This document shows, piece after piece, positions 47,918 to 60,114 of a DNA stretch of 64,000 nucleotides. The notes under the pieces are model-generated. The model made no database searches, had not been told where the DNA came from, and saw nothing but the letters and a program-made list of their open reading frames with translations. This DNA comes from Chitinispirillaceae bacterium (GTDB lineage: Bacteria; Fibrobacterota; Chitinivibrionia; Chitinivibrionales; Chitinispirillaceae). Positions within the stretch are counted from its first letter, which is position 1. Every line of letters starts with the position of its first letter. A program made the translations under genes and the position numbers. The DNA lies in assembly GCA_016929415.1 (NCBI GenBank), contig JAFGIW010000157.1, positions 1 through 64,000 on the forward strand. Reading direction: 5' to 3'.

Positions 47918-48091
47918 GGGAATAATTTTTTGAATGATAAACCTTTAGCATATGGAAAAACTGTTTCGCTCGCGCCGGGGGCATTTTATATTTGCATAAA
48001 TGTTCAAGATAATATAATATATAAATTTATGAATGGTTGATACAAACGGAGACGGATTGTTTTACCACCATTCATGATGGGAATGACTAAA

Positions 48092-48823
48092 ATGCGCTAT
48101 GCAATCATTTCGGATATCCATGGAAATGTCGAGGCTCTACAGGCGGTAATAAATGATATCAATAAAAGATCAATCGACTCGATCATCTGCCTCGGCGATA
48201 TCGTCGGCTACTATCCCGATCCGGAACGCTGCATCGACCTCGTGAAAAAAGAGGTGGATTACTGCGTGGCGGGGAACCACGATTACGCGGCGATCGGCCG
48301 TATCGACACCCAGAATTTCACCTATTACGCCTACGCCGCCATGGAGTGGACAAAACAGAATATCTCCGAACGGGCGAAGGAGTACCTCCGGTCGCTGCCG
48401 CTCACCGTCACGCTCGAAAACATGTTCTTCACCCATTCTTCGCCGTCGAACCCGCAGGACTGGGTGTACGTCTTTCCCGACAGTGAAGAGACGGTGTTCG
48501 AGGCGTTCAACAGCCTGATGTACGGCCTCAATTTCATCGGCCATACCCACTGGCCCTCGATCATGATCCAGGAGGAGGACCGCATCATCCTCCATTCGGA
48601 ACATACCATCGATGTCATCGATTCGCATTTCTACCTCATCAATGTCGGCAGCGTCGGTCAGCCGCGCGATTTCGACTCGCGGTCGTGCTATGCGCTCTAC
48701 GACACTGAAAGTAAAGAAATCATGCTCGTGCGGGTCGAGTATGATTTCCGCAGCACCCAGAAAAAGATCAGGGAAAAGCACCTGCCCATGTTCCTGGCCG
48801 AACGGCTGGAGAAGGGGAGGTAG
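48092..48823 (+). CDS. Calcineurin-like metallophosphoesterase
   Basis: Started at 48092 to begin 'MRYAIISDIHGNVEALQAV', giving 243 residues; two ATGs up to 18 bases upstream are alternatives. All motifs of the binuclear-metal phosphoesterase fold are visible: D-x-H (Asp8, His10), 'ICLGDIVGYYPDP', 'VAGNHDYAA', 'FFTHSSP' and 'FIGHTHWP'. The last block, 'LINVGSVGQPRDFDSRSCYALYD', is typical of the YfcE/ApaH-like branch. The substrate is unknown (nucleotides, phosphodiesters or phosphoproteins). It is divergent from the NrnA-like gene. Confidence 0.9.
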   Translation: MRYAIISDIHGNVEALQAVINDINKRSIDSIICLGDIVGYYPDPERCIDLVKKEVDYCVAGNHDYAAIGRIDTQNFTYYAYAAMEWTKQNISERAKEYLRSLPLTVTLENMFFTHSSPSNPQDWVYVFPDSEETVFEAFNSLMYGLNFIGHTHWPSIMIQEEDRIILHSEHTIDVIDSHFYLINVGSVGQPRDFDSRSCYALYDTESKEIMLVRVEYDFRSTQKKIREKHLPMFLAERLEKGR

Positions 48824-49152: not shown

Positions 49153-50265
49153 GTGAAAACCGTTACTGCTGCAGAAAAAGTCGCTTTCATCGCCCATCCT
49201 GTCGATTTGGGAATCTTCAGGTCATACATCGCCTCGCTCAGGCCCGACAAGCATTACGATGACAGGCTCCTGATCAAGCTGTTCGAATGGACCCCCCCGT
49301 ATGCGGTCAAACAGTTTTCCTCCTTGAGCCTTGACGGACACCGGGCCGTTGATGCACGGCTCTACATGGTGCCGTTTCTGCCTGAAATGCAGGCGATCAG
49401 CGTAAAAAAGGTAATTGACAAGATCGATACAGCGCTGGCGCTGGCCAAAGCGCAGGGATGCACCGTCGCCGCCATGGGCGGGTTCACCTCCATCGTCCTG
49501 CAGAACCTCGAGGAAAATTATTCCCGCAGGCACGGCATCAGGATCACCTCGGGCAATACCTTGACGGCGTCCATCATCATCAGGTCCATCGAGGAGATCG
49601 CCGGCCGGTTCGGCCTCGATATTGCGTCGTCCACGATGGCGATTATCGGCGCTTCGGGGGATATCGGCAGCGCCTGTATGGGCTATTTCTGCCAAAAGGT
49701 GAAGAAAATGTATCTCACGGCGCGCAGCGTTCCAACCCTTGCTGAGGTGGTGCGACACTGCCGCGATTCCGCAACGGCGGAGATGGTGATTTCAGACAAC
49801 AATACCGAAGCAATCGAACAATCCGACTTCTGTATTTTCGTCACGAGCGCGTATGTCAGCCTTTTTACCGAGAAGGATTTCAAGCCCGGTACCATTGTCT
49901 GTGACGCATCGGCGCCGCCGAATGTGAAATTCGACTCGGGAATACGTGACGATGTTTTTATCTATCATGGCGGTATAGCGGCCATTCCATTTCCGCTGGA
50001 AGTAGATTTCGACATCGGCCTCTCGTCGCCCCTGACGTTTTACGGATGCCAGCTCGAAGGCCTGCTTCTGGGCCTGCATCCGGAGTTGCCGTGTTCGTGG
50101 GGAAGGGGGAATATCACACAGGAGAGGCTTGCTCGTTTTCTTGCTCTTTTGGATCAGTATCCTCTATTACATCCGGTGTATTCATTCGGTAACCTCTACT
50201 ACAGTGAGGAAATGGTCGATACTTATGCCCAACGGTGGCGGCCTCGACTTTATGCAGTTGCTTGA
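49153..50265 (+). CDS. Acyl-ACP reductase-like protein (fatty-aldehyde forming, AAR family)
   Basis: This 370-residue protein resembles cyanobacterial long-chain acyl-[ACP] reductase, which makes fatty aldehyde with NADPH. Shared blocks are 'AAMGGFTSIVLQNLEE' (107-121) and 'RITSGNTLTASIIIRS' (130-145), the Rossmann loop 'AIIGASGDIGSACMG' (163-177), and 'CSWGRGNITQERLARF' (314-329). Cys299 (FYGCQLE) stands where AAR has its thioester-forming catalytic Cys. It starts at GTG 49153 with a weak ribosome site. The following gene is an acyl carrier protein, 43 bases on, which fits the substrate. No aldehyde-deformylating oxygenase is present, so alkane formation is not expected. Confidence 0.85.
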   Translation: MKTVTAAEKVAFIAHPVDLGIFRSYIASLRPDKHYDDRLLIKLFEWTPPYAVKQFSSLSLDGHRAVDARLYMVPFLPEMQAISVKKVIDKIDTALALAKAQGCTVAAMGGFTSIVLQNLEENYSRRHGIRITSGNTLTASIIIRSIEEIAGRFGLDIASSTMAIIGASGDIGSACMGYFCQKVKKMYLTARSVPTLAEVVRHCRDSATAEMVISDNNTEAIEQSDFCIFVTSAYVSLFTEKDFKPGTIVCDASAPPNVKFDSGIRDDVFIYHGGIAAIPFPLEVDFDIGLSSPLTFYGCQLEGLLLGLHPELPCSWGRGNITQERLARFLALLDQYPLLHPVYSFGNLYYSEEMVDTYAQRWRPRLYAVA

Positions 50266-50308
50266 TAAACTTGACTATTTTGAAATGAAAAGGGGAGATC
50301 GTTTCTTC

Positions 50309-50554
50309 ATGGATGAGAAATTGAAAGAGCGCATTGACGGCATCATACTTTCCGACATCGGTATCGATCCGGCCACCATCGATGCCGACAAACCGATCAG
50401 GGACCAGATCAGCCTAGATTCCATGCAGTTTGTCAGCCTGATCGCGAAACTTGAGATAGAACTGGATGTTGAATTGCCGATTGCGATCATGCAGGTCAAC
50501 ACCCTACGCGAATTCTATGGCGCGATTCAGCAGGCACTCAGGGAACGTAATTAA
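50309..50554 (+). CDS. Acyl carrier protein
   Basis: The ATG at 50309 (GGGGAG upstream) gives an 81-residue carrier protein; longer frames start inside the reductase gene. Ser38 in SLDSMQF is the 4'-phosphopantetheine site, with Met in place of the usual Leu. Helix III ends 'ELDVELPIAIMQVNTLREFY'. The protein is acidic, as the family is. It probably tethers the acyl chain used by the upstream reductase and charged by the downstream AMP ligase. It is separate from the primary fatty-acid ACP, which would lie with fab genes elsewhere. Composition is close to the genome norm, unlike the next gene. Confidence 0.9.
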   Translation: MDEKLKERIDGIILSDIGIDPATIDADKPIRDQISLDSMQFVSLIAKLEIELDVELPIAIMQVNTLREFYGAIQQALRERN

Positions 50555-50611
50555 TTCTGTATTAAACGGCATGGTTTGATAGAGAGGACCCGACACGGGG
50601 AATTATTGCCG

Positions 50612-51556
50612 ATGAAGATATTCATAACCGGCAGTACGGGTTTTATTGGAAGCCATTTTATCAAACAGATCGCCGGCAAGGGGCATAAGTTGGTTTGCCT
50701 CGTTCGCGAAACAAGCAACCTTGAAACCTTGAATAAATATAAGTGCACGCTTGTTTATGGCGATGTAACCGATAAAGATTCTGTTAATCGCGGTATGAAA
50801 GGTTGTGACTGCGCGGTCAATCTTGCGGGCATTTACTCTTTATGGGAGAGGGATTCTTCAATTTATTATAAAGTAAATGTACTAGGTACGCGCTATGTAA
50901 TGGAAGCATCGCTTGAAAACAACCTTGAAAAGGTCGTTCATGTAAGCACCGTTGCAATTTATGGGAAGCCGGAAGAAATCCCTTTTGTCGAATCGAGCAC
51001 TCCGGGCCCTGTCCGGTTCAGCGAGTATGCCCGGACAAAGTACGCGGGGGAAATAATCGCTTGGGATTTATTTAAAAAAAACAAATTGCCGTTGGTGGTG
51101 ATTTATCCTGCCGTGGTCATCGGACCTGGAGATACAAAAGTGGCTGAACAATATGCACGATTAATAAGAGATAGTAAACTCCCGGCATTGGCATGCGTTA
51201 ATTCGAAAATTACCTGGGTACATGTCGATGATGTCGCGTCGGCGATAGAAAAAGCATTGGTGAAGGATAATAATATCGGAATGAAATATATCATCGGCAA
51301 GGAGCAGATCACCATTGGTGATTATTTTAAAAACCTTTTCACGAATACTTCAGTTAAATTACCACACATCATACTGCCGGATTGGCTGGCTGTTGCGCTC
51401 AGTACGATACTGACGATCATTGCCGATATTACAGGGAGACCCCCGTTATGGGGAATGTCGAAAGATCAAATATCAACAATGAAAACCGGCATCAGCGCCG
51501 ATGGAAGCTTGGTTGAGAGAGAACTCAATCTCCATTATAGCAGCGTTTTAAAGTAG
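50612..51556 (+). CDS. Extended short-chain dehydrogenase (NAD-dependent epimerase / 3beta-HSD-like)
   Basis: The ATG at 50612 gives 314 residues. The nucleotide-binding loop is 'FITGSTGFIGSHF' (residues 4-16). The catalytic set is Ser112 (HVSTVAIYG), Tyr139 and Lys143 (YARTK). 'NVLGTRYVMEASLENN' and 'ITWVHVDDVASAIEKAL' are typical of extended SDRs of the dihydroflavonol reductase/3beta-HSD/HpnA group. It probably reduces a ketone or acts on a lipid-linked sugar. Beside an aldehyde-forming reductase, a lipid carbonyl is the more natural substrate, by context only. The gene is AT-rich, the first one in the foreign-looking stretch. Confidence 0.85.
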   Translation: MKIFITGSTGFIGSHFIKQIAGKGHKLVCLVRETSNLETLNKYKCTLVYGDVTDKDSVNRGMKGCDCAVNLAGIYSLWERDSSIYYKVNVLGTRYVMEASLENNLEKVVHVSTVAIYGKPEEIPFVESSTPGPVRFSEYARTKYAGEIIAWDLFKKNKLPLVVIYPAVVIGPGDTKVAEQYARLIRDSKLPALACVNSKITWVHVDDVASAIEKALVKDNNIGMKYIIGKEQITIGDYFKNLFTNTSVKLPHIILPDWLAVALSTILTIIADITGRPPLWGMSKDQISTMKTGISADGSLVERELNLHYSSVLK

Positions 51557-51663
51557 ATATTCGGAGTGTATAAAAATAATTGCCCTGTTATTGTAATGCG
51601 TGTTACTATCGATGTAGTGGATTACGGTAGCGGTAGTTGCGTTATCGAAGCGGAGGGGATAGC

Positions 51664-53037
51664 TTGAAACGGCTTACCGATTATCTGCAGCCTGGAACCG
51701 TCTACTTTAGAAACCGAGCTTTCGGACCAGTGGAGATCATGGCTGGTATTGACGCCGTCGCTCGGTATCTTTCCGACAATCTCACGTCACAATCACCTTT
51801 TGTCTACCTTTTCGCCTCGAACCATGTCAAAACGGTGCTTGCATTTTTCGGCATTATAAAAGCGCAACGTATCTGCGTGGTCGTCGATCCGGGTATCGGC
51901 CGATTGGAGCTGCAGGAAATGATGCGGGATACTCCGCCGGCAGCCTGTGTACGTATTGACGAAGCTGCTATAACTTGGGATTTTAACAAGGAAATCGAAA
52001 TCACGGCTACAGTATGGGCTGATGATGGCAGTGAGGATCTCAGTGATGTGTGCATGATGATGTATACTGCGGCTGAAGACGGGTATGCGAAAGCAGCAAT
52101 GCTGACTCATGAAAATATTGCATCAGATGCAGGCGCAATTGCATCCGGTAATCATGTCGATTATGTAAGTATGTCGATGGCGGTTCTTCCTTTCAGTCAT
52201 GCATTCGGGTTGCAGACAGGCGTCATTACGCCGCTTTTAAGCGGAGGAAATACGATATTTGTTGCAAACGAAGATTTTTCAAAGCCTCGACATATTATTA
52301 ATCTGATTATGTCATTAGATGTCACCCATTACTATTCAATCCCTGCATTATATTACCTGCTTGGAAAAGCATTGCGTTATGGTGGAACAATTCGAACCGT
52401 GCGAAGTTTTATCAGCGGTGGTTATACGCTTTCCGATATTATCCGTGATCGCTTTCTCAATTCGTATGGTATCTGCATCCGTCAAGGATATGGGCTTACC
52501 GAAGCTTCCCCAGTCTGTTCATGGGTGTTTTTCGATGCGCCGGATCGAACGAAATCCATAGGCAAACCGATAAGCTGTTGTGAAATGAAAATTGCACAGC
52601 ATGAAGGATTGATCGCTACAAATTCGGAGACAGGTGAGATTGTAGTGCGTGGAACGAATGTCATGAAAGGATATTATCACAACCTGGAAGCGACGGAAAG
52701 GGTAATAAAGGATGGTTGGTTACTTACCGGAGATCTTGGATACAGGGATAGTAACGGGTATTTCTATTTTATCGGAACGAATAAGCGCATGATCAATTAT
52801 GGGGGTGTTAAAATTTTTCCTAATGAGGTGGAACGGTTGATGAAGATGAATGAAAATGTGATAAACGCTGCTTTCTATGCAGAAAAGAACCCGCTTATGC
52901 ATGAACTTGTTGGTGCCCGTGTTACATTAAAAGTTAATTCATTGGAATTCCAACTCAAGTTTCGACAATGGCTGAAAGGCAATCTGACTGATTATAAAAT
53001 ACCAAAACGAATTCATTTTAACACTATTGATGAATAA
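51664..53037 (+). CDS. AMP-dependent acyl-activating enzyme with degenerate P-loop
   Basis: This 457-residue ANL-superfamily ligase is read from a TTG at 51664, six bases after GGAGGGG; the upstream TTG at 51637 has no ribosome site. The phosphate loop, normally 'YTSGTTGxPKG', reads YTAAEDGYAKAAMLTHEN at residues 134-151, retaining the Lys but losing the Ser/Gly and Pro. Other motifs are sound: 'QGYGLTEASPVC' (A5), 'GWLLTGDLGYRD' (A7), 'KRMINYGGVKIFPNEVE' (A8) and a terminal Lys in 'DYKIPKRI' (A10). It should adenylate a fatty acid and load the neighbouring ACP. Reduced or altered activity is possible given the P-loop. Confidence 0.88.
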   Translation: MKRLTDYLQPGTVYFRNRAFGPVEIMAGIDAVARYLSDNLTSQSPFVYLFASNHVKTVLAFFGIIKAQRICVVVDPGIGRLELQEMMRDTPPAACVRIDEAAITWDFNKEIEITATVWADDGSEDLSDVCMMMYTAAEDGYAKAAMLTHENIASDAGAIASGNHVDYVSMSMAVLPFSHAFGLQTGVITPLLSGGNTIFVANEDFSKPRHIINLIMSLDVTHYYSIPALYYLLGKALRYGGTIRTVRSFISGGYTLSDIIRDRFLNSYGICIRQGYGLTEASPVCSWVFFDAPDRTKSIGKPISCCEMKIAQHEGLIATNSETGEIVVRGTNVMKGYYHNLEATERVIKDGWLLTGDLGYRDSNGYFYFIGTNKRMINYGGVKIFPNEVERLMKMNENVINAAFYAEKNPLMHELVGARVTLKVNSLEFQLKFRQWLKGNLTDYKIPKRIHFNTIDE

Positions 53038-53073
53038 CATTTTTATCGATATGAAACCTTAAGGGAATGGTAT

Positions 53074-54717
53074 ATGGGGGATAGAATATTGCTTACAACG
53101 GTGTTCAAGCCCTTTGCTGTCGATGATATGTTCAGTAGGAAGGAAAATATTCCTGAATTAATGATGTCACAAATAACCTGTGTTCAGGGGATTTTCAGTT
53201 ACCGAGCGTGGCATGCCAATTCCGGGTTACATATGATTGCAGCCAATTGCGGACATGAAACAACTGTTATGGAATGGCCTTCACTCGATGAATTTCGGAC
53301 TGATCTGCGTCGAAATACTTATAAATATATTGGTATTAGTTTTATTCCGTCAACATTTAATAAGATGAAGAAAATGGTAGAGACAGTACGGGAGGTCTCC
53401 CCTTTGAGTAAAATAATTATCGGAGGATATGGCACTATGGTGCCGAATATTGAAAGTATAGTCGATGTTGATTATGTATGCAAAGGGGAAGGAATTCGAT
53501 TTATACGAAATATTTTAAAGGAATCACCCCTCTTCAATTTCAACCACCCGACTGTAACGAGTTCAATAGTTGAATTTCTTGGAATACCAGTACCGTTTGT
53601 TCGTGTTGGTCAGATTGTTACCGGGCTTGGTTGCCAATATGGTTGTGAGTTTTGTGTTACCAGCGCTTTTTTTCACTGCGTTTATCAGCCATTTCTGACA
53701 AAAGGTGAGCAGATCTATAACCTTATTGAAGAACAATGTCAATATTCAGGTTTAAAAAACTTTTGGATTATCGATGAAAATTTTCTTTTTAACAGGGAGC
53801 GTATTGATGAGTTTCATAATGCCATATACCGTAGGGGAAGGAAAATACCTGATTATTCGATTGATATGATATGGAGTACGAGCGACCTCGTTACATCCTA
53901 TACACCGCTGCAGCTGGCTGAAATAGGAGTAACAAAATGTTGGATGGGCTATGAGTCGATGTTCACAGATTATAAAAAAAACAGAAAAACAGATTTCAGT
54001 AGGTTAATCAAGGAATTAAATGAGGTGGGGATTTCAGTACTGCTTTCATGTACGGCATTCGTCGATTTTCATGATGAAAATAGATGGAAAGAAGAGTTGG
54101 ATCATTTTATACGATTGGGACAAGCATATTCTCAGCTTTTACCGCTTTGTGCATTTCCGGGAACACCGTTATACAAGGAAATGGATAAGGCAGGAAGATT
54201 GATCGATGGCATAGCTTGGGAGGATAAACATGCGCTTACTCACTCATTTCACAAACACGATAAGATCCCGATATGGAGGCAAAAGAATTTGATTCATGAT
54301 GCATATTGTAAAGAGTATGAAGAGAATGGACCGAGTCAGATAAGGGACTTGCGAACTCGGTTAAAGGGGTATGAAAACATGGTTCAATCGGGAAGCGAAG
54401 TATTAGCCAAGAGGGCGGAGTATTTAAAATATCATCTGATCAATCAAGTACCATGGGTTCTGGCAGCACGAAATCATGCAAAAACCGAACATCAAATATT
54501 TGTTGATATGGCAATAGCTGAACTTGAACGTGTTATCGGGAAAGAATATATTAAAAAAGCTGATATGGCATACCATTACATAGATAGATTGATTCGTAAA
54601 AACCTTAAGGAAAGAAATGGTGTGGAAGTAACCGAGAGGGAACCCGGAACAAGAATAAGCATTTATGACGGATGCCATTCCTCACCGATGCTGGTAAAAA
54701 ATCCGGCGGTATGGTGA
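53074..54717 (+). CDS. Radical SAM protein with N-terminal B12-binding-like domain
   Basis: This 547-residue protein has an N-terminal Rossmann-type cobalamin-binding-like domain (~1-165; 'KIIIGGYGTMVPN' and 'DYVCKGEG') without the DxHxxG histidine. A radical SAM barrel follows, with Cys187, Cys191 and Cys194 in GLGCQYGCEFCVTS. The C-terminal ~150 residues are helical. Similar architectures include methylases and cyclases such as BchE and HpnR that act on lipids and tetrapyrroles. Within this cluster it may methylate, desaturate or otherwise modify the acyl chain or aldehyde. That is inference; no substrate is visible. Composition is AT-rich. It lies 36 bases after the ligase. Confidence 0.88.
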   Translation: MGDRILLTTVFKPFAVDDMFSRKENIPELMMSQITCVQGIFSYRAWHANSGLHMIAANCGHETTVMEWPSLDEFRTDLRRNTYKYIGISFIPSTFNKMKKMVETVREVSPLSKIIIGGYGTMVPNIESIVDVDYVCKGEGIRFIRNILKESPLFNFNHPTVTSSIVEFLGIPVPFVRVGQIVTGLGCQYGCEFCVTSAFFHCVYQPFLTKGEQIYNLIEEQCQYSGLKNFWIIDENFLFNRERIDEFHNAIYRRGRKIPDYSIDMIWSTSDLVTSYTPLQLAEIGVTKCWMGYESMFTDYKKNRKTDFSRLIKELNEVGISVLLSCTAFVDFHDENRWKEELDHFIRLGQAYSQLLPLCAFPGTPLYKEMDKAGRLIDGIAWEDKHALTHSFHKHDKIPIWRQKNLIHDAYCKEYEENGPSQIRDLRTRLKGYENMVQSGSEVLAKRAEYLKYHLINQVPWVLAARNHAKTEHQIFVDMAIAELERVIGKEYIKKADMAYHYIDRLIRKNLKERNGVEVTEREPGTRISIYDGCHSSPMLVKNPAVW

Positions 54718-54934
54718 ATATTTCGGAAAAATAAAAGAAGTTAAGGGATAGTAAAACTCTGTAAATGAATGTGTTTTCAAGTGGTTACTATCATTGGATT
54801 GCTTTTATAACAACATTAGAAAATACAATTAAATAAATTAGCGGTCGGCGTGCAGGCAGGTGATTTCCAATAAATCCGACCAATTAATCCAAAAGTGTTG
54901 AAAGAAAGTGAAACAACCGTTTAAATACAGAATA

Positions 54935-54963
54935 TTGACTTTTATATTTATATGTAATAAAAT
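54935..54963 (+). promoter_or_regulatory. Promoter placing the kinase message near-leaderless
   Basis: TTGACT at 54935-54940 and TAAAAT at 54958-54963 are 17 bases apart. The expected start of transcription is only 3-5 bases before the ATG at 54973. No ribosome site is present there. Confidence 0.45.
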
Positions 54964-54972
54964 CAATAAGCT

Positions 54973-57900
54973 ATGGTAGGTATTAAACAAAAATATGATT
55001 TTCTTACCACTGTCTCCAAGAGTAGCGATAGTAATGTATTGCTGGTGCAGCATAAAGAGTCATTGACAAAATATCTTTTAAAGTTAATTAAATCGAGCAA
55101 TAATGACTTAAATAAAATTGAGATAAAAAAACGATTTTATCATGAAATAAACATCGTTTCATCTTTCGATCATCCCAATATCGGAAAACCGATTGATACA
55201 CAAATTGATGAAGATGCTTTTGCCATTATTTATCCTTATGAAAAAGGAAACACCCTTGCCCAGCTATTTCATAACAGGGAAACATTCACGGAAAGTGATT
55301 CATTGCATATAATAAAACAGCTATTATTTGCATTGGAATACATTCACGAAAGAGGAATCGTTCATGCTGATATTAATCCGTATAATATTTATGTAACTGA
55401 AGAAAAAGGGGTATATTTATTAGATTTTGGATTGTCAATGACTGAAGAAGAAGCAAATAAAATACCGGAAGGTAGAATTGTCGGAACATTTCCATATTTG
55501 GCTCCGGAACAAATGGGCTTCACAAAATTTAAGATTGATAGGCGTACCGACCTTTTCTGCACTGTGATCATTCTTTATAAAATGATTGCGGGTAAGTTGC
55601 CGTTTCAAATGCAGGAGGATTCAATAAAAGATCTCCTTGATGCAGCAATAAAAAGGGACATCGTCGGCATAAAACATATCCCGCAATATTTAAATGAAAT
55701 AATTATAAAGGGATTACGTCCTACGCCAGCAGACCGATATCAAACTGTAGAAGGGCTTCTTTACGATTTGTCCATTGCTATTGATAAGATTAAAACCAAT
55801 AATAATGAATGCTTTGTAATTGGACAAAAAGATGCTATAGCCGCAATAAATCGAAAGAGACTATTCGTTGTCCGTGAAAATGAATTGGCTCTATTACAAA
55901 ATGGTATTAAGCATGTAGTAAAAGAAAAAGAAGCGTCTTATTTATTGTATGGAAAATCAGGGATTGGAAAGACAGAACTTGTAAAGGAATTTAAAATAAA
56001 AGCAGATGAAATGAAAGTAGATTTTTTAACTGCTAGATGTAACCGGTTTACACCTACCCAGCCATATTCGATATATCGACAAATAATTATCGAATTTATA
56101 CTAAACAATACATGCGCTGATAAAGATGAGAAGAATTCTATCAGAAAATCAATAAATAAAGAGTGCCTTGAATATTCGGGGATAATTTGCAAAATCGTGC
56201 CGGAAATGAAGGATTTATTTGATACCGTTCACGAAATAGGCATAATCGAAAAGGATAAAGAGGCTGACCGAATAATTCATGTACTGACCGAATTTATTGA
56301 AAAACTATGTAAGTTAAAAAAAACAATTTTATTTATAGACGACTTCCAGTGGGTTGATAGAATAACATCTAACATTGTTTTAAATCTAATTGATCATCGT
56401 ATACCAATTATGGTGGTATGTAATTATAGAATCGCAGAAAACAATGAAAACCTATTTTGCTTTGAAAGAGATTTACGAACATGCGGATTTACTAAAATAA
56501 TTAAAGTTAATGAATTTACAATAAAAGAAACAACGGAACTTGTTTTAAAACGATTCGGTCAGATTGAGGAAGCTGATGAACTTATAAGGATGTTACATAC
56601 CAAGACGGACGGAGTTCCATTTGTCCTAACAGAAGCTATTAGGTATTTAGTAAACGATGCTCTTTTAACGGTAAGAGATAGAAGTTGGTTCTATAAAAAA
56701 GAAAGTGTTAGTGAATTGCCGGATAAATTCGACCCTGTTTCTCTTATTATGCAAAAATTAAATGGATTGAATGATGAAGAGAAGGAATTTCTAAAAGTAT
56801 CATCGCTTATCGAAGGGAAAATCGATTGTTCAATAATTGAAAAAATAATTAACAAAAAAACATGCTCCCTGTCTGTAATTGCATCACGACTTGAAAGTAT
56901 GGGGTTGATAGTAATGCAGATAAACGGGGGGTATACATTTATACATAACCGAATACAGGAATCAATTTCAGGTCGGATTGAAATAAATGAAAAGTATAAT
57001 TTATATGAATTGATCGGCGATATTTATTATAAAATTGCGATAACCGATAAAGAAAAAATATTTAATGCGGCAGAATATTTTTTAAAAAGTAAAAATGCAA
57101 AAAAAGCAATGGAAATTTGTTACCAGGCAGCACTATATGCGACTGAAAAGATAGCATTTGACGTCGCTATCCGTTATTTTAAAAGACTTACATTGCTAGC
57201 AGATCAAAAACAAGCAAAATCAATTACTTCTATCGATTTAATTCAAGCAAAAATTACATTTGGAGATGTTTTAGCATTAACAGGTGCAAACGAACAGGCT
57301 TTAAATGTATTTAATAAAATTTATTTTGAAGAAAAAACGATAAATAAATATCAAAAATTACAGGTCAGCTACAAAATAGGTTCAATCTATCATAATATCG
57401 GTGACTTTGAATTATCCACGCCATATTTTATATCCGCATTAAATTCATTAGGGATTAAAATACATAAGAACAACGTTTCCATTATACGTGGGTTGATGTT
57501 TGAAATAGTTAAACTATTTGTCAAGCCTATTTGGTTGACATTTTGTTTCAATCCAAAAAGTGATCAATGGAGATTGCTGAAGTTGCGGATACTTAATAAA
57601 TTGAGTTATTCAATGTATTTTAAGCATATGATTGCTTCAATGTATCTTCAGTTTCTCGCGAACAATTTGGCAGATCGTGTAGTGGATAGCTATGAAAAAG
57701 CAGAGGCATATTCGATGCATGGTATTGCATCATACCAAATATTTATGAAAAAAAGGGCTTTTAAATATCATAATAAGTCATCTGAAATTGCAAGAAAAAT
57801 ACATAGACAGGATGTCCTTGCATTTTCGAAATCCTTTGGCGGGCTATGTTATTATTATAACGGTTCATGGAGAAAAAGTGAAATATTATTATCTAAAAGT

Positions 57901-60114
57901 ATTGAACTATTTAGTTCAATTGGTGACTTAAATAGTCAAATAATAAGTAAAGAACACATTTGGAAAATTGACTTAATGAAAGGTAAAATTGAAACAATAC
58001 TTGATGACATGCAAAAGACAATTACGTTATGCAATAGGGTTCATGATCAATATTTTATGGTAGTGACAATGGCCGCTCAAAATCTGGTAAAATTTCTAAA
58101 AAATGGAAAACATGACAAAAAAGAATATGCCGAAATTCATGATCGCCTCAAGAAATTTGATTCTATTCTTTTTCATATCGAAGCTGGCAATTATCTTTTA
58201 AATAACGAAATCGAATTAGGGAAATATAAACGTGCTTATGAACGCGCAACTATACTATTACCATTAATATTAAAGAAATGTATAAACTCAGAATATCAGG
58301 TAAGAAGTTATAATTTGTTCTGTTATCTGATAGTGAAGGAGCTTCTTGATAGAAAAAGTGGAATTGCACAAATTGGCATCTCATCAAAAATACTTAAGAA
58401 AAAATTTATCAACAATAGCTTCATCCACTGGTTCTCATGTTTAAACTACCCAGCATACTGGGGCTCATACCATCGTAATCTCGCATGGTTTTGCGCATTG
58501 CAAAAGCACAAATGGCTTGCGCATCATTTCTTCAAAAAGGCTATCAAAGCTCATCATAAACTCGACATGCGTTACGAGGAAGCATGTTCCATCAGAGATT
58601 ATGGTCGTTTTCTTGATGATTTCTGTGATCTTCCGGGTGAAGCACGTGACCGTTATACCGAAGCGTATAAAATATTTCAATGGTGCGGTGCTAAATTAGA
58701 AACCGATCGTTTAGAAGAATACCTGCATACTCATCGGGACAGAAAACAGACATTTATTGGTCATATGATGGATACCGAAGTTGAACCGGTCTTTGATGTC
58801 GGTTCCTCCTCCGGCGTCAACCTCCTCCGTTTCGAAACCCTCGTTGACGTAAGCAAGACCATTACCGAGACCGACGACCCCTCGATCCTCATGCGCCAGA
58901 TTCTTTCAGCGATGATAACCGCGACAGGCGCGCAGTACGGCGGTCTTTTCATAAACAAATACGCCTACGACGGTCTCGAACCGATTGCAATGACGTTCGA
59001 GGGAAATGAAGTACCGATCAATGAAGTCCCTGTGTTTACGGACCTTATCAACAAGGTCAACGAAATCCACACGCTGCAGTGTACCGGCGAGACCGCCGTC
59101 GACAATGATACCGATACCGATTCCACCTACATCCGCTCCGACCTCTGCGTGCCGCTCAACTGGCGCGACAAATACCTCGGGTATGTGTATCTTGTCAATG
59201 ACCGGGTGCGCGGTCTGTTCGGCGAGGGGGCGCAGAAGGCGGCGATGGTGCTTGCCGCTCAGGCGGGCATTCTTCTTGAAAACGCCGCCCTGCTGAGAAA
59301 ACAGAGGGAGTTCAACGAGGAGTTGCAGCAGCAGGTGGCGTCTCAGACGAAGGATATTCTCCATAAAAACCAGCAGCTTGAGGATGCGAACCTGAAGCTG
59401 ATCGAATCGGAGCGGATGAAGGGTATTTTGAGCGGAACCCTTGTGCATGACATTAAAAACTATGCTGCGGGGATCACCGGCAACCTTATCTACCTCAGTC
59501 GGCGCATGGAGAGTGATCCGAAGGCGCAACGTGTTATAGATGTGGTGTGTGAAACCTGTACCGATATCACGAGCATGGCCTCCAACCTGCTCGATATCGC
59601 CAAGATGGATGACGGCAAATTGGTAGTGAAGGAAGAGCTGATCGACTTCCAGTTCTTCGAGGGCGTGGCTGAGAAATTCGGGAAGAGCGCGCTTTTTGAT
59701 GAGAAGGAAATCGTCACGAAAATCGTTCCGCCCGAAGAGGATTTCATTATATCCGCGGATGTTTATCTCATGGAGCGTGTGTTGCAGAACCTTTACAGCA
59801 ATGCGGCGAAATACGCGCCGAAAGGAAGTTCGGTCGAATTGCGGTTCCATCATGAGGGCGGGGAAAACATTGTCTGTTTCTTCAATTCCGGAACCCCGAT
59901 TCCCGATTCGGAAAAAGAGATTATGTTTGAGAAGTATGCGAGGCTTCAGACCCGGCAGTCACCCTACTCCAAAGGGCTCGGGCTGTTTTTCTGCAGGATG
60001 GTGGTGCAGGCTCACCACGGAAGGATATGGCTCGATACCGATCAGTCCGGGAACTATTTCAAACTGGCATTTCCCCGAAAAGATTTCATCAGAAGATTGA
60101 ACGCCGCTTCGTAA
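54973..60114 (+). CDS. Ser/Thr kinase-AAA ATPase-TPR-GAF-histidine kinase chimera
   Basis: This 1713-residue hybrid kinase reads in order as follows. A Ser/Thr protein kinase spans ~1-270, with catalytic 'HADINPYN' at 131-138 and DFG at 151. A STAND/AAA ATPase spans ~300-680, with Walker A GKSGIGKT at 327-334 and Walker B 'ILFIDDFQWVD' near 453. TPR-like helical repeats cover ~690-1250. A GAF domain covers ~1280-1440. The histidine kinase has phospho-acceptor His1492 in VHDIKNY, N-box 'NLYSNAAKYAP' near 1607 and G-box 'GLGLFFC' near 1664. The layout matches the HstK/PknK-type sensors of cyanobacteria and myxobacteria. Composition is about a third or less GC up to residue ~1270, then normal. 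It probably senses a state linked to the upstream lipid cluster. Confidence 0.9.
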   Translation: MVGIKQKYDFLTTVSKSSDSNVLLVQHKESLTKYLLKLIKSSNNDLNKIEIKKRFYHEINIVSSFDHPNIGKPIDTQIDEDAFAIIYPYEKGNTLAQLFHNRETFTESDSLHIIKQLLFALEYIHERGIVHADINPYNIYVTEEKGVYLLDFGLSMTEEEANKIPEGRIVGTFPYLAPEQMGFTKFKIDRRTDLFCTVIILYKMIAGKLPFQMQEDSIKDLLDAAIKRDIVGIKHIPQYLNEIIIKGLRPTPADRYQTVEGLLYDLSIAIDKIKTNNNECFVIGQKDAIAAINRKRLFVVRENELALLQNGIKHVVKEKEASYLLYGKSGIGKTELVKEFKIKADEMKVDFLTARCNRFTPTQPYSIYRQIIIEFILNNTCADKDEKNSIRKSINKECLEYSGIICKIVPEMKDLFDTVHEIGIIEKDKEADRIIHVLTEFIEKLCKLKKTILFIDDFQWVDRITSNIVLNLIDHRIPIMVVCNYRIAENNENLFCFERDLRTCGFTKIIKVNEFTIKETTELVLKRFGQIEEADELIRMLHTKTDGVPFVLTEAIRYLVNDALLTVRDRSWFYKKESVSELPDKFDPVSLIMQKLNGLNDEEKEFLKVSSLIEGKIDCSIIEKIINKKTCSLSVIASRLESMGLIVMQINGGYTFIHNRIQESISGRIEINEKYNLYELIGDIYYKIAITDKEKIFNAAEYFLKSKNAKKAMEICYQAALYATEKIAFDVAIRYFKRLTLLADQKQAKSITSIDLIQAKITFGDVLALTGANEQALNVFNKIYFEEKTINKYQKLQVSYKIGSIYHNIGDFELSTPYFISALNSLGIKIHKNNVSIIRGLMFEIVKLFVKPIWLTFCFNPKSDQWRLLKLRILNKLSYSMYFKHMIASMYLQFLANNLADRVVDSYEKAEAYSMHGIASYQIFMKKRAFKYHNKSSEIARKIHRQDVLAFSKSFGGLCYYYNGSWRKSEILLSKSIELFSSIGDLNSQIISKEHIWKIDLMKGKIETILDDMQKTITLCNRVHDQYFMVVTMAAQNLVKFLKNGKHDKKEYAEIHDRLKKFDSILFHIEAGNYLLNNEIELGKYKRAYERATILLPLILKKCINSEYQVRSYNLFCYLIVKELLDRKSGIAQIGISSKILKKKFINNSFIHWFSCLNYPAYWGSYHRNLAWFCALQKHKWLAHHFFKKAIKAHHKLDMRYEEACSIRDYGRFLDDFCDLPGEARDRYTEAYKIFQWCGAKLETDRLEEYLHTHRDRKQTFIGHMMDTEVEPVFDVGSSSGVNLLRFETLVDVSKTITETDDPSILMRQILSAMITATGAQYGGLFINKYAYDGLEPIAMTFEGNEVPINEVPVFTDLINKVNEIHTLQCTGETAVDNDTDTDSTYIRSDLCVPLNWRDKYLGYVYLVNDRVRGLFGEGAQKAAMVLAAQAGILLENAALLRKQREFNEELQQQVASQTKDILHKNQQLEDANLKLIESERMKGILSGTLVHDIKNYAAGITGNLIYLSRRMESDPKAQRVIDVVCETCTDITSMASNLLDIAKMDDGKLVVKEELIDFQFFEGVAEKFGKSALFDEKEIVTKIVPPEEDFIISADVYLMERVLQNLYSNAAKYAPKGSSVELRFHHEGGENIVCFFNSGTPIPDSEKEIMFEKYARLQTRQSPYSKGLGLFFCRMVVQAHHGRIWLDTDQSGNYFKLAFPRKDFIRRLNAAS

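Follow-up and report, generated by a model that had tools for sequence, protein, structure and literature searches.

Results and Discussion

Acyl-ACP reductase (AAR) is an enzyme known for alkane making, and the locus studied here raises the question of what such a reductase does when it is encoded together with its own acyl carrier protein (ACP) in a member of the Chitinispirillaceae. The window, by which we mean the whole 64,000-nucleotide stretch of DNA analysed, carries an AAR-type gene at the head of a cassette at 49.1–54.7 kb. We give an even chance to the reading that this cassette is a version of a modular locus for a lipid signal found in one bacterial order, with AAR standing in for a CqsA-type enzyme.

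The Cassette and Its Layout

The features of the cassette and its surroundings are collected in Table 1. Likely gene starts were chosen from reading frame and homology; for the ACP, the listed open reading frame begins upstream of the start at 50309 through read-through. Reading frames and homology confirmed the order in which the sequence-only reading had placed the five genes, all on the plus strand. One gene past the limit of that reading, a very large kinase gene begins 255 bp downstream of the radical SAM gene.

Table 1. Features of the cassette and its flanks in the window
Feature	Coordinates	Strand	Remarks
Calcineurin-like phosphoesterase	48074..48823	+	Left flank of the cassette
AAR-type acyl-ACP (thioester) reductase, 370 aa	49153..50265	+	Cys299, GASGDIG loop, SWGRGNI
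Acyl carrier protein, about 81 aa	50309..50554	+	Phosphopantetheine serine in SLDSM
Extended SDR	50612..51556	+	TGSTGFIG and YxxxK present; HpnA/OleD-like score below cut-offs
ANL-fold protein	51664..53037	+	A10 catalytic lysine missing; A3 P-loop is YTAAEDGYAKAA
B12-binding-like/radical SAM protein, 547 aa	53074..54717	+	CxxxCxxC present
Ser/Thr kinase–AAA_16–TPR-like region–(GAF-like)–histidine kinase, 1713 aa	54973..60114	+	
Low-G+C tract	50600..58570	none	43% falling to about 30%; window 52%

The comparison did not bear out the five genes as a conserved set, as their order was found in no other locus read. The nearest relative is L016, from a metagenome bin that carries the label Ca. Latescibacterota; its AAR is 85% identical to that of the window. 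Because its locus runs AAR–ACP–ANL–radical SAM with the SDR missing between ACP and ANL, the SDR gene looks optional rather than core. Within the order, eight genomes carry AAR: the window genome (G000), G007, G014, G025, G027, G031, G032, and G036. Most of the genomes compared are drafts in many contigs.

A Probable Aldehyde-Forming Reductase outside the Alkane Pathway

The catalytic Cys299 and the SWGRxNI motif, which the sequence-only reading had noted in the AAR homologue, are both where they were said to be. Aligned to AAR structures, Cys299 pairs with Cys294 of the Synechococcus enzyme, R318 with R314 of cyanobacterial AAR, and the GASGDIG sequence at 166–172 with the GATGDIG cofactor loop, so that the NADPH loop is retained (residue roles from PMC7089970). 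Every one of ten homologues from the order keeps the catalytic cysteine, as does each of the 29 AAR-family rows sampled. The window AAR matches the solved cyanobacterial AAR with E = 3.7e-24, and its AlphaFold model (mean pLDDT 86.8) superposes on 6jzu with a TM-score of 0.75/0.81, which excludes a chance resemblance. In a tree, the AAR clade of the order joins two cyanobacterial sequences (support 99/96, with long branches flagged). The window AAR scores 109.9 bits against TIGR04058, below the curated equivalog cut-off of 449.7.

The argument that this is not an alkane pathway also stood. A genome search did not find an aldehyde-deformylating oxygenase (ADO) in G000 or the seven other AAR genomes of the order, and the same search was positive in two genomes where AAR adjoins ADO. 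The residues that dock ADO are replaced in the window AAR (R73 by S83, R79 by D89), and Tyr247 of the cyanobacterial enzyme is an alanine. Because the cysteine, cofactor loop, and fold are kept while ADO and the docking residues are missing, the reaction is very probably that of a thioester to an aldehyde, but not for alkanes. The Ole olefin pathway, likewise set aside by the sequence-only reading, was considered and rejected, as the SDR has an HpnA/OleD-like score that falls below the cut-offs.

The sequence-only reading described an AAR outside Cyanobacteria. The homology is genuine, but the occurrence is not itself new: a profile search gave good matches in numerous genomes from other phyla, and PigE (PMC8341465), TamH (PMC9594044), and KecF (PMC6498172) are published reductases of the AAR family. 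Plasmids gave weak matches of at most 27% identity, mostly aminotransferase fusions of the PigE kind. Near AAR homologues in other phyla (L155, L159, L163) lies a conserved uncharacterised protein with the motif VS(V/I)SLGSS, for which the copy tested had no Pfam match.

Variable Candidate Finishing Enzymes and History of the Locus

Among the genomes searched, the radical SAM protein of the window has its sole orthologue in L016, and its next relatives are 34–36% identical. Other AAR loci of the order carry other enzymes: a different B12-radical SAM protein in G025, G031, and G014; a ThDP enzyme beside the kinase in G007, G014, and G031; and a reducing PKS between AAR and kinase in G032. A ThDP orthologue was not found in the window genome, where the best match is 27%. 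On its contig C27, the window genome encodes a 34% relative of the radical SAM protein (L106, 8513–10480) whose C-terminal extension is STAS-like by eye; similar proteins occur in G010, G015, and G027.

The flanks of the cassette are conserved where the cassette is missing. The phosphoesterase gene adjoins the kinase gene directly in G002, of the same genus, and in G003, of the same family, and the NifU and DHH genes to the left lie in the same order as in the window. Given this empty site with matching flanks, we consider that the cassette was gained or lost as a block. The apparent absence in G001 was discarded as evidence, as contig breaks there interrupt both the phosphoesterase and the kinase gene. 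At the position of the cassette, between phosphoesterase and kinase, G010 (L069, 8500–10998) and G008 (L070, 9185–11734) have a Radical_SAM_N2/DUF2344 gene immediately ahead of the kinase gene.

The low-G+C tract stops sharply partway through the kinase gene, whose first 3.6 kb have a G+C of about 32%; near 58.57 kb the value is back at 50%. Identity of the kinase to that of G002 jumps near this step. The G001 kinase gene, where its assembled part begins, has comparably low G+C, unlike that of G002. Recombination in the kinase gene is only suggested by this pattern. A chimeric kinase was dropped as a candidate, as a single history for both halves could not be rejected from their trees (AU p 0.31).

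A CqsA-Like Synthase in the Place of AAR

In G006 and G009, the ANL–ACP pair occurs without AAR. A CqsA-like enzyme is encoded adjoining it or at most about 8 kb away, as are two sensor histidine kinases. The two CqsA-like enzymes are 80% identical to each other. Their best solved match is the CAI-1 autoinducer synthase (E = 1.9e-52), and they match NF005526 with E = 4.3e-87 and 292 bits, below the cut-off of 428. The synthase was present only in these two genomes and found in no AAR genome, and the other genomes searched gave CqsA-like matches of only 29–33% identity; a PLP synthase of the CqsA/LqsA type was not found in the window. This alternation of AAR and CqsA-like enzyme beside the ANL–ACP pair is, like the gene content, motifs, and neighbourhoods described here, a direct observation, and it is our strongest reason for reading the AAR loci as signal loci.

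CqsA and LqsA make alpha-hydroxyketones, and the loci of this autoinducer class pair the synthase with a sensor kinase (PMC3376566). A sensor kinase also lies beside the loci studied here, both in the window and in G006 and G009. In prodigiosin synthesis, PigE reduces a thioester, and PigD uses pyruvate as the source of an acetyl unit that it adds to the carbon of an aldehyde (PMC8341465). Given the chemistry of PigD, an AAR acting with the ThDP enzyme of the relatives would be expected to yield the compound class of CqsA and LqsA, an alpha-hydroxyketone.

Sensor Kinases and SRPBCC-PilZ Proteins as Stable Neighbours

Five of the eight AAR genomes (G000, G007, G025, G031, and G032) encode an orthologue of the 1.7-kaa kinase no more than about 8 kb away from AAR. 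In G014 the contigs break between the two genes, and in G027 the kinase is on a separate contig. Genes for a receiver-histidine kinase and an SRPBCC-PilZ protein precede AAR in seven of the eight (G031, G025, G007, G014, G027, G036, and G032), with the ANL gene lying between them in G025. In the window genome this pair is unlinked, on contig C65 beside a glycosyltransferase and efflux set. All ten proteins checked carry the RxxxR and [DN]xSxxG motifs in their PilZ part.

Of 26 genomes, 11 have both the kinase and the SRPBCC-PilZ protein, 13 have neither, and each occurs without the other in one (Fisher p 2.7e-5, without correction for kinship). Outside the phylum, SRPBCC genes were at or near AAR in 4 of 18 loci, compared with one weak match in a 347-kb control. 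In G282, from another phylum, AAR is flanked by an SRPBCC gene before it and a 7TM-GAF-HD_5 sensor gene after it, with a gene for a FadL/TodX transporter just upstream. The kinase and the receiver-histidine kinase/SRPBCC pair persist in genomes where AAR was not found, such as G003 and G010, and they therefore have other inputs or uses. In G010 (L112, 6393–10704) the receiver-histidine kinase and SRPBCC-PilZ genes stand directly before fliD, hinting at a motility output.

From gene neighbourhoods, the tie to the kinase points to signalling rather than to bulk lipid. The main alternative is a pathway to a modified membrane or storage lipid, such as a fatty alcohol or an ether or wax precursor, that the neighbouring kinase merely regulates. 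AAR, SDR, and B12-radical SAM would all fit lipid tailoring, the reducing PKS of G032 agrees with it, and the radical SAM protein of the related locus L018 scores weakly with those of hopanoid and ladderane lipids. However, the signalling proteins are stable neighbours, the ANL–ACP pair alternates between AAR and a CqsA-like synthase, and the cassettes examined yielded no recognisable acyltransferase, glycerol-phosphate enzyme, or wax synthase. We consider this alternative unlikely, while taking it seriously.

A secondary metabolite of the tambjamine or prodigiosin type, in which an acid on ACP becomes an aldehyde and then a tailored amine or ketone of antibiotic or other ecological use, is less probable still. 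Such chemistry is performed by TamA (ANL–ACP) and TamH (transaminase–AAR) (PMC9594044), and relatives encode comparable fusions, ANL–transaminase–AAR in G003 and transaminase–AAR in G008. Against it, a class III transaminase was neither found in the window cassette nor recognised in the orthologous loci, and the ANL protein is without catalytic motifs. The G003 fusion (L074, 1051–5208) is one 1385-aa protein with AMP-binding, class III transaminase, and AAR-like domains, resembling TamA and TamH in one chain.

A Conserved ANL Family without the A3 and A10 Ligase Motifs

The sequence-only reading had the ANL protein load an acid onto ACP, a step not supported, given the loss of the A10 lysine and the A3 P-loop. 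The family of eight (from G000, L016, and six other genomes) was compared with seven canonical ANLs of the phylum. All eight members end just before the A10 motif, and the A3 loop (TSG[TS]TGxPKG), which reads TAAEDGYAKAA in the window, is replaced throughout by a conserved sequence of the type YTAAEDGYAKAA; the seven canonical proteins retain both motifs. The fold is kept (PDB match E = 7.5e-40), as are motifs A5 (YGLTE) and A7 (TGD), and an ACP gene accompanies the ANL gene in all eight loci. Members score 695–744 bits against at most 289 for other proteins, a gap that is partly built in, as the profile was made from the family itself; they occur in 7 of 392 genomes, all of this order.

With A10 and A3 missing across the family, ATP-driven loading of ACP by this protein is doubtful, and it is probably not a normal ligase. 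Its conservation argues for a function, not the usual one. That it is still an active ligase, leaving the route from acid through acyl-ACP to aldehyde unchanged, has the retained fold, A5, A7, and ACP partner in its favour and is very improbable against the loss of both catalytic motifs in every member. Between two AAR genes in G027 (L020, 1464–1730) lies an ACP in which threonine replaces the phosphopantetheine serine (CIDTM).

A Putative Fat-Derived Signal

What remains of the earlier pathway is an AAR-type thioester reductase with its own ACP; the ligase step and the fixed five-gene set do not. In the mechanism that we propose, ordinary fatty acid synthesis would supply acyl-ACP. AAR would move the acyl chain onto Cys299 and reduce it with NADPH to an aldehyde, the step best supported by homology, and finishing enzymes would then convert the aldehyde into a small lipid product. 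In relatives, the ThDP (acetolactate-synthase-like) enzyme may join aldehyde and pyruvate into an alpha-hydroxyketone; in the window, the SDR, the B12-radical SAM protein, or both could be the finishing enzymes. The ANL-like protein, which probably no longer adenylates, may bind or hand over acyl groups, although this is speculative. The product would be read by the adjacent Ser/Thr-His kinase together with the receiver-histidine kinase and SRPBCC-PilZ protein. We infer the class of the product, the sensing of a ligand, and what the ANL protein, SDR, and radical SAM protein do. Set beside its relatives, the cassette seems to make a chemical signal derived from fat and not an oil or an ordinary membrane lipid.

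Several observations weigh against a signal. A neighbouring kinase can regulate a pathway without sensing its product, and the window has neither a ThDP enzyme nor a CqsA-like gene, with its receiver-histidine kinase/SRPBCC pair unlinked. A bolder reading, which we put forward tentatively and as somewhat improbable, is that cells signal to one another through a system of a kind not described before: an aldehyde-forming AAR, working with finishing enzymes that can be exchanged, would take over from the CqsA/LqsA synthase, and the Ser/Thr-histidine kinase and the SRPBCC-PilZ protein (lipid-binding plus cyclic-di-GMP-type) would read the signal. If the lipid-signal reading of the locus is right, it would extend lipid quorum-type signalling to a poorly studied order, give AAR a signalling role, and mean that a synthase step has been swapped between unrelated enzymes on a common carrier module. 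It would also bring to light a conserved family of ANL proteins from which the ligase machinery has apparently been lost.

Comparison with Known Systems

Cyanobacterial AAR (TIGR04058; PDB 6jzq/6jzu) has the fold (TM-score about 0.8), catalytic cysteine, GxxGDIG loop, and SWGR motif in common with the window AAR, which differs in its identity of about 25%, its score of 110 bits against a cut-off of 450, and its lack of an ADO partner. The TamA/TamH (tambjamine) and PigD/PigE (prodigiosin) systems likewise reduce an ACP-bound acyl thioester with an AAR-type domain, and the ThDP partner of PigD/PigE recurs in G007 and G031; unlike them, the window has no transaminase, its ANL is without A3 and A10, and sensor kinases are attached.

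The Cqs/Lqs systems (CqsA/LqsA plus sensor kinase) resemble the present loci in that the gene for a lipid-product enzyme lies beside sensor kinases, and a CqsA-like synthase fills the same ANL–ACP context in G006 and G009. In the window, by contrast, AAR is in the place of CqsA and the kinase is a Ser/Thr-His fusion. HstK-type proteins are fusions of a Ser/Thr kinase and a histidine kinase, and as in the window kinase, both kinase types are found in one polypeptide; what sets the window kinase apart from them is its linkage to an AAR cassette.
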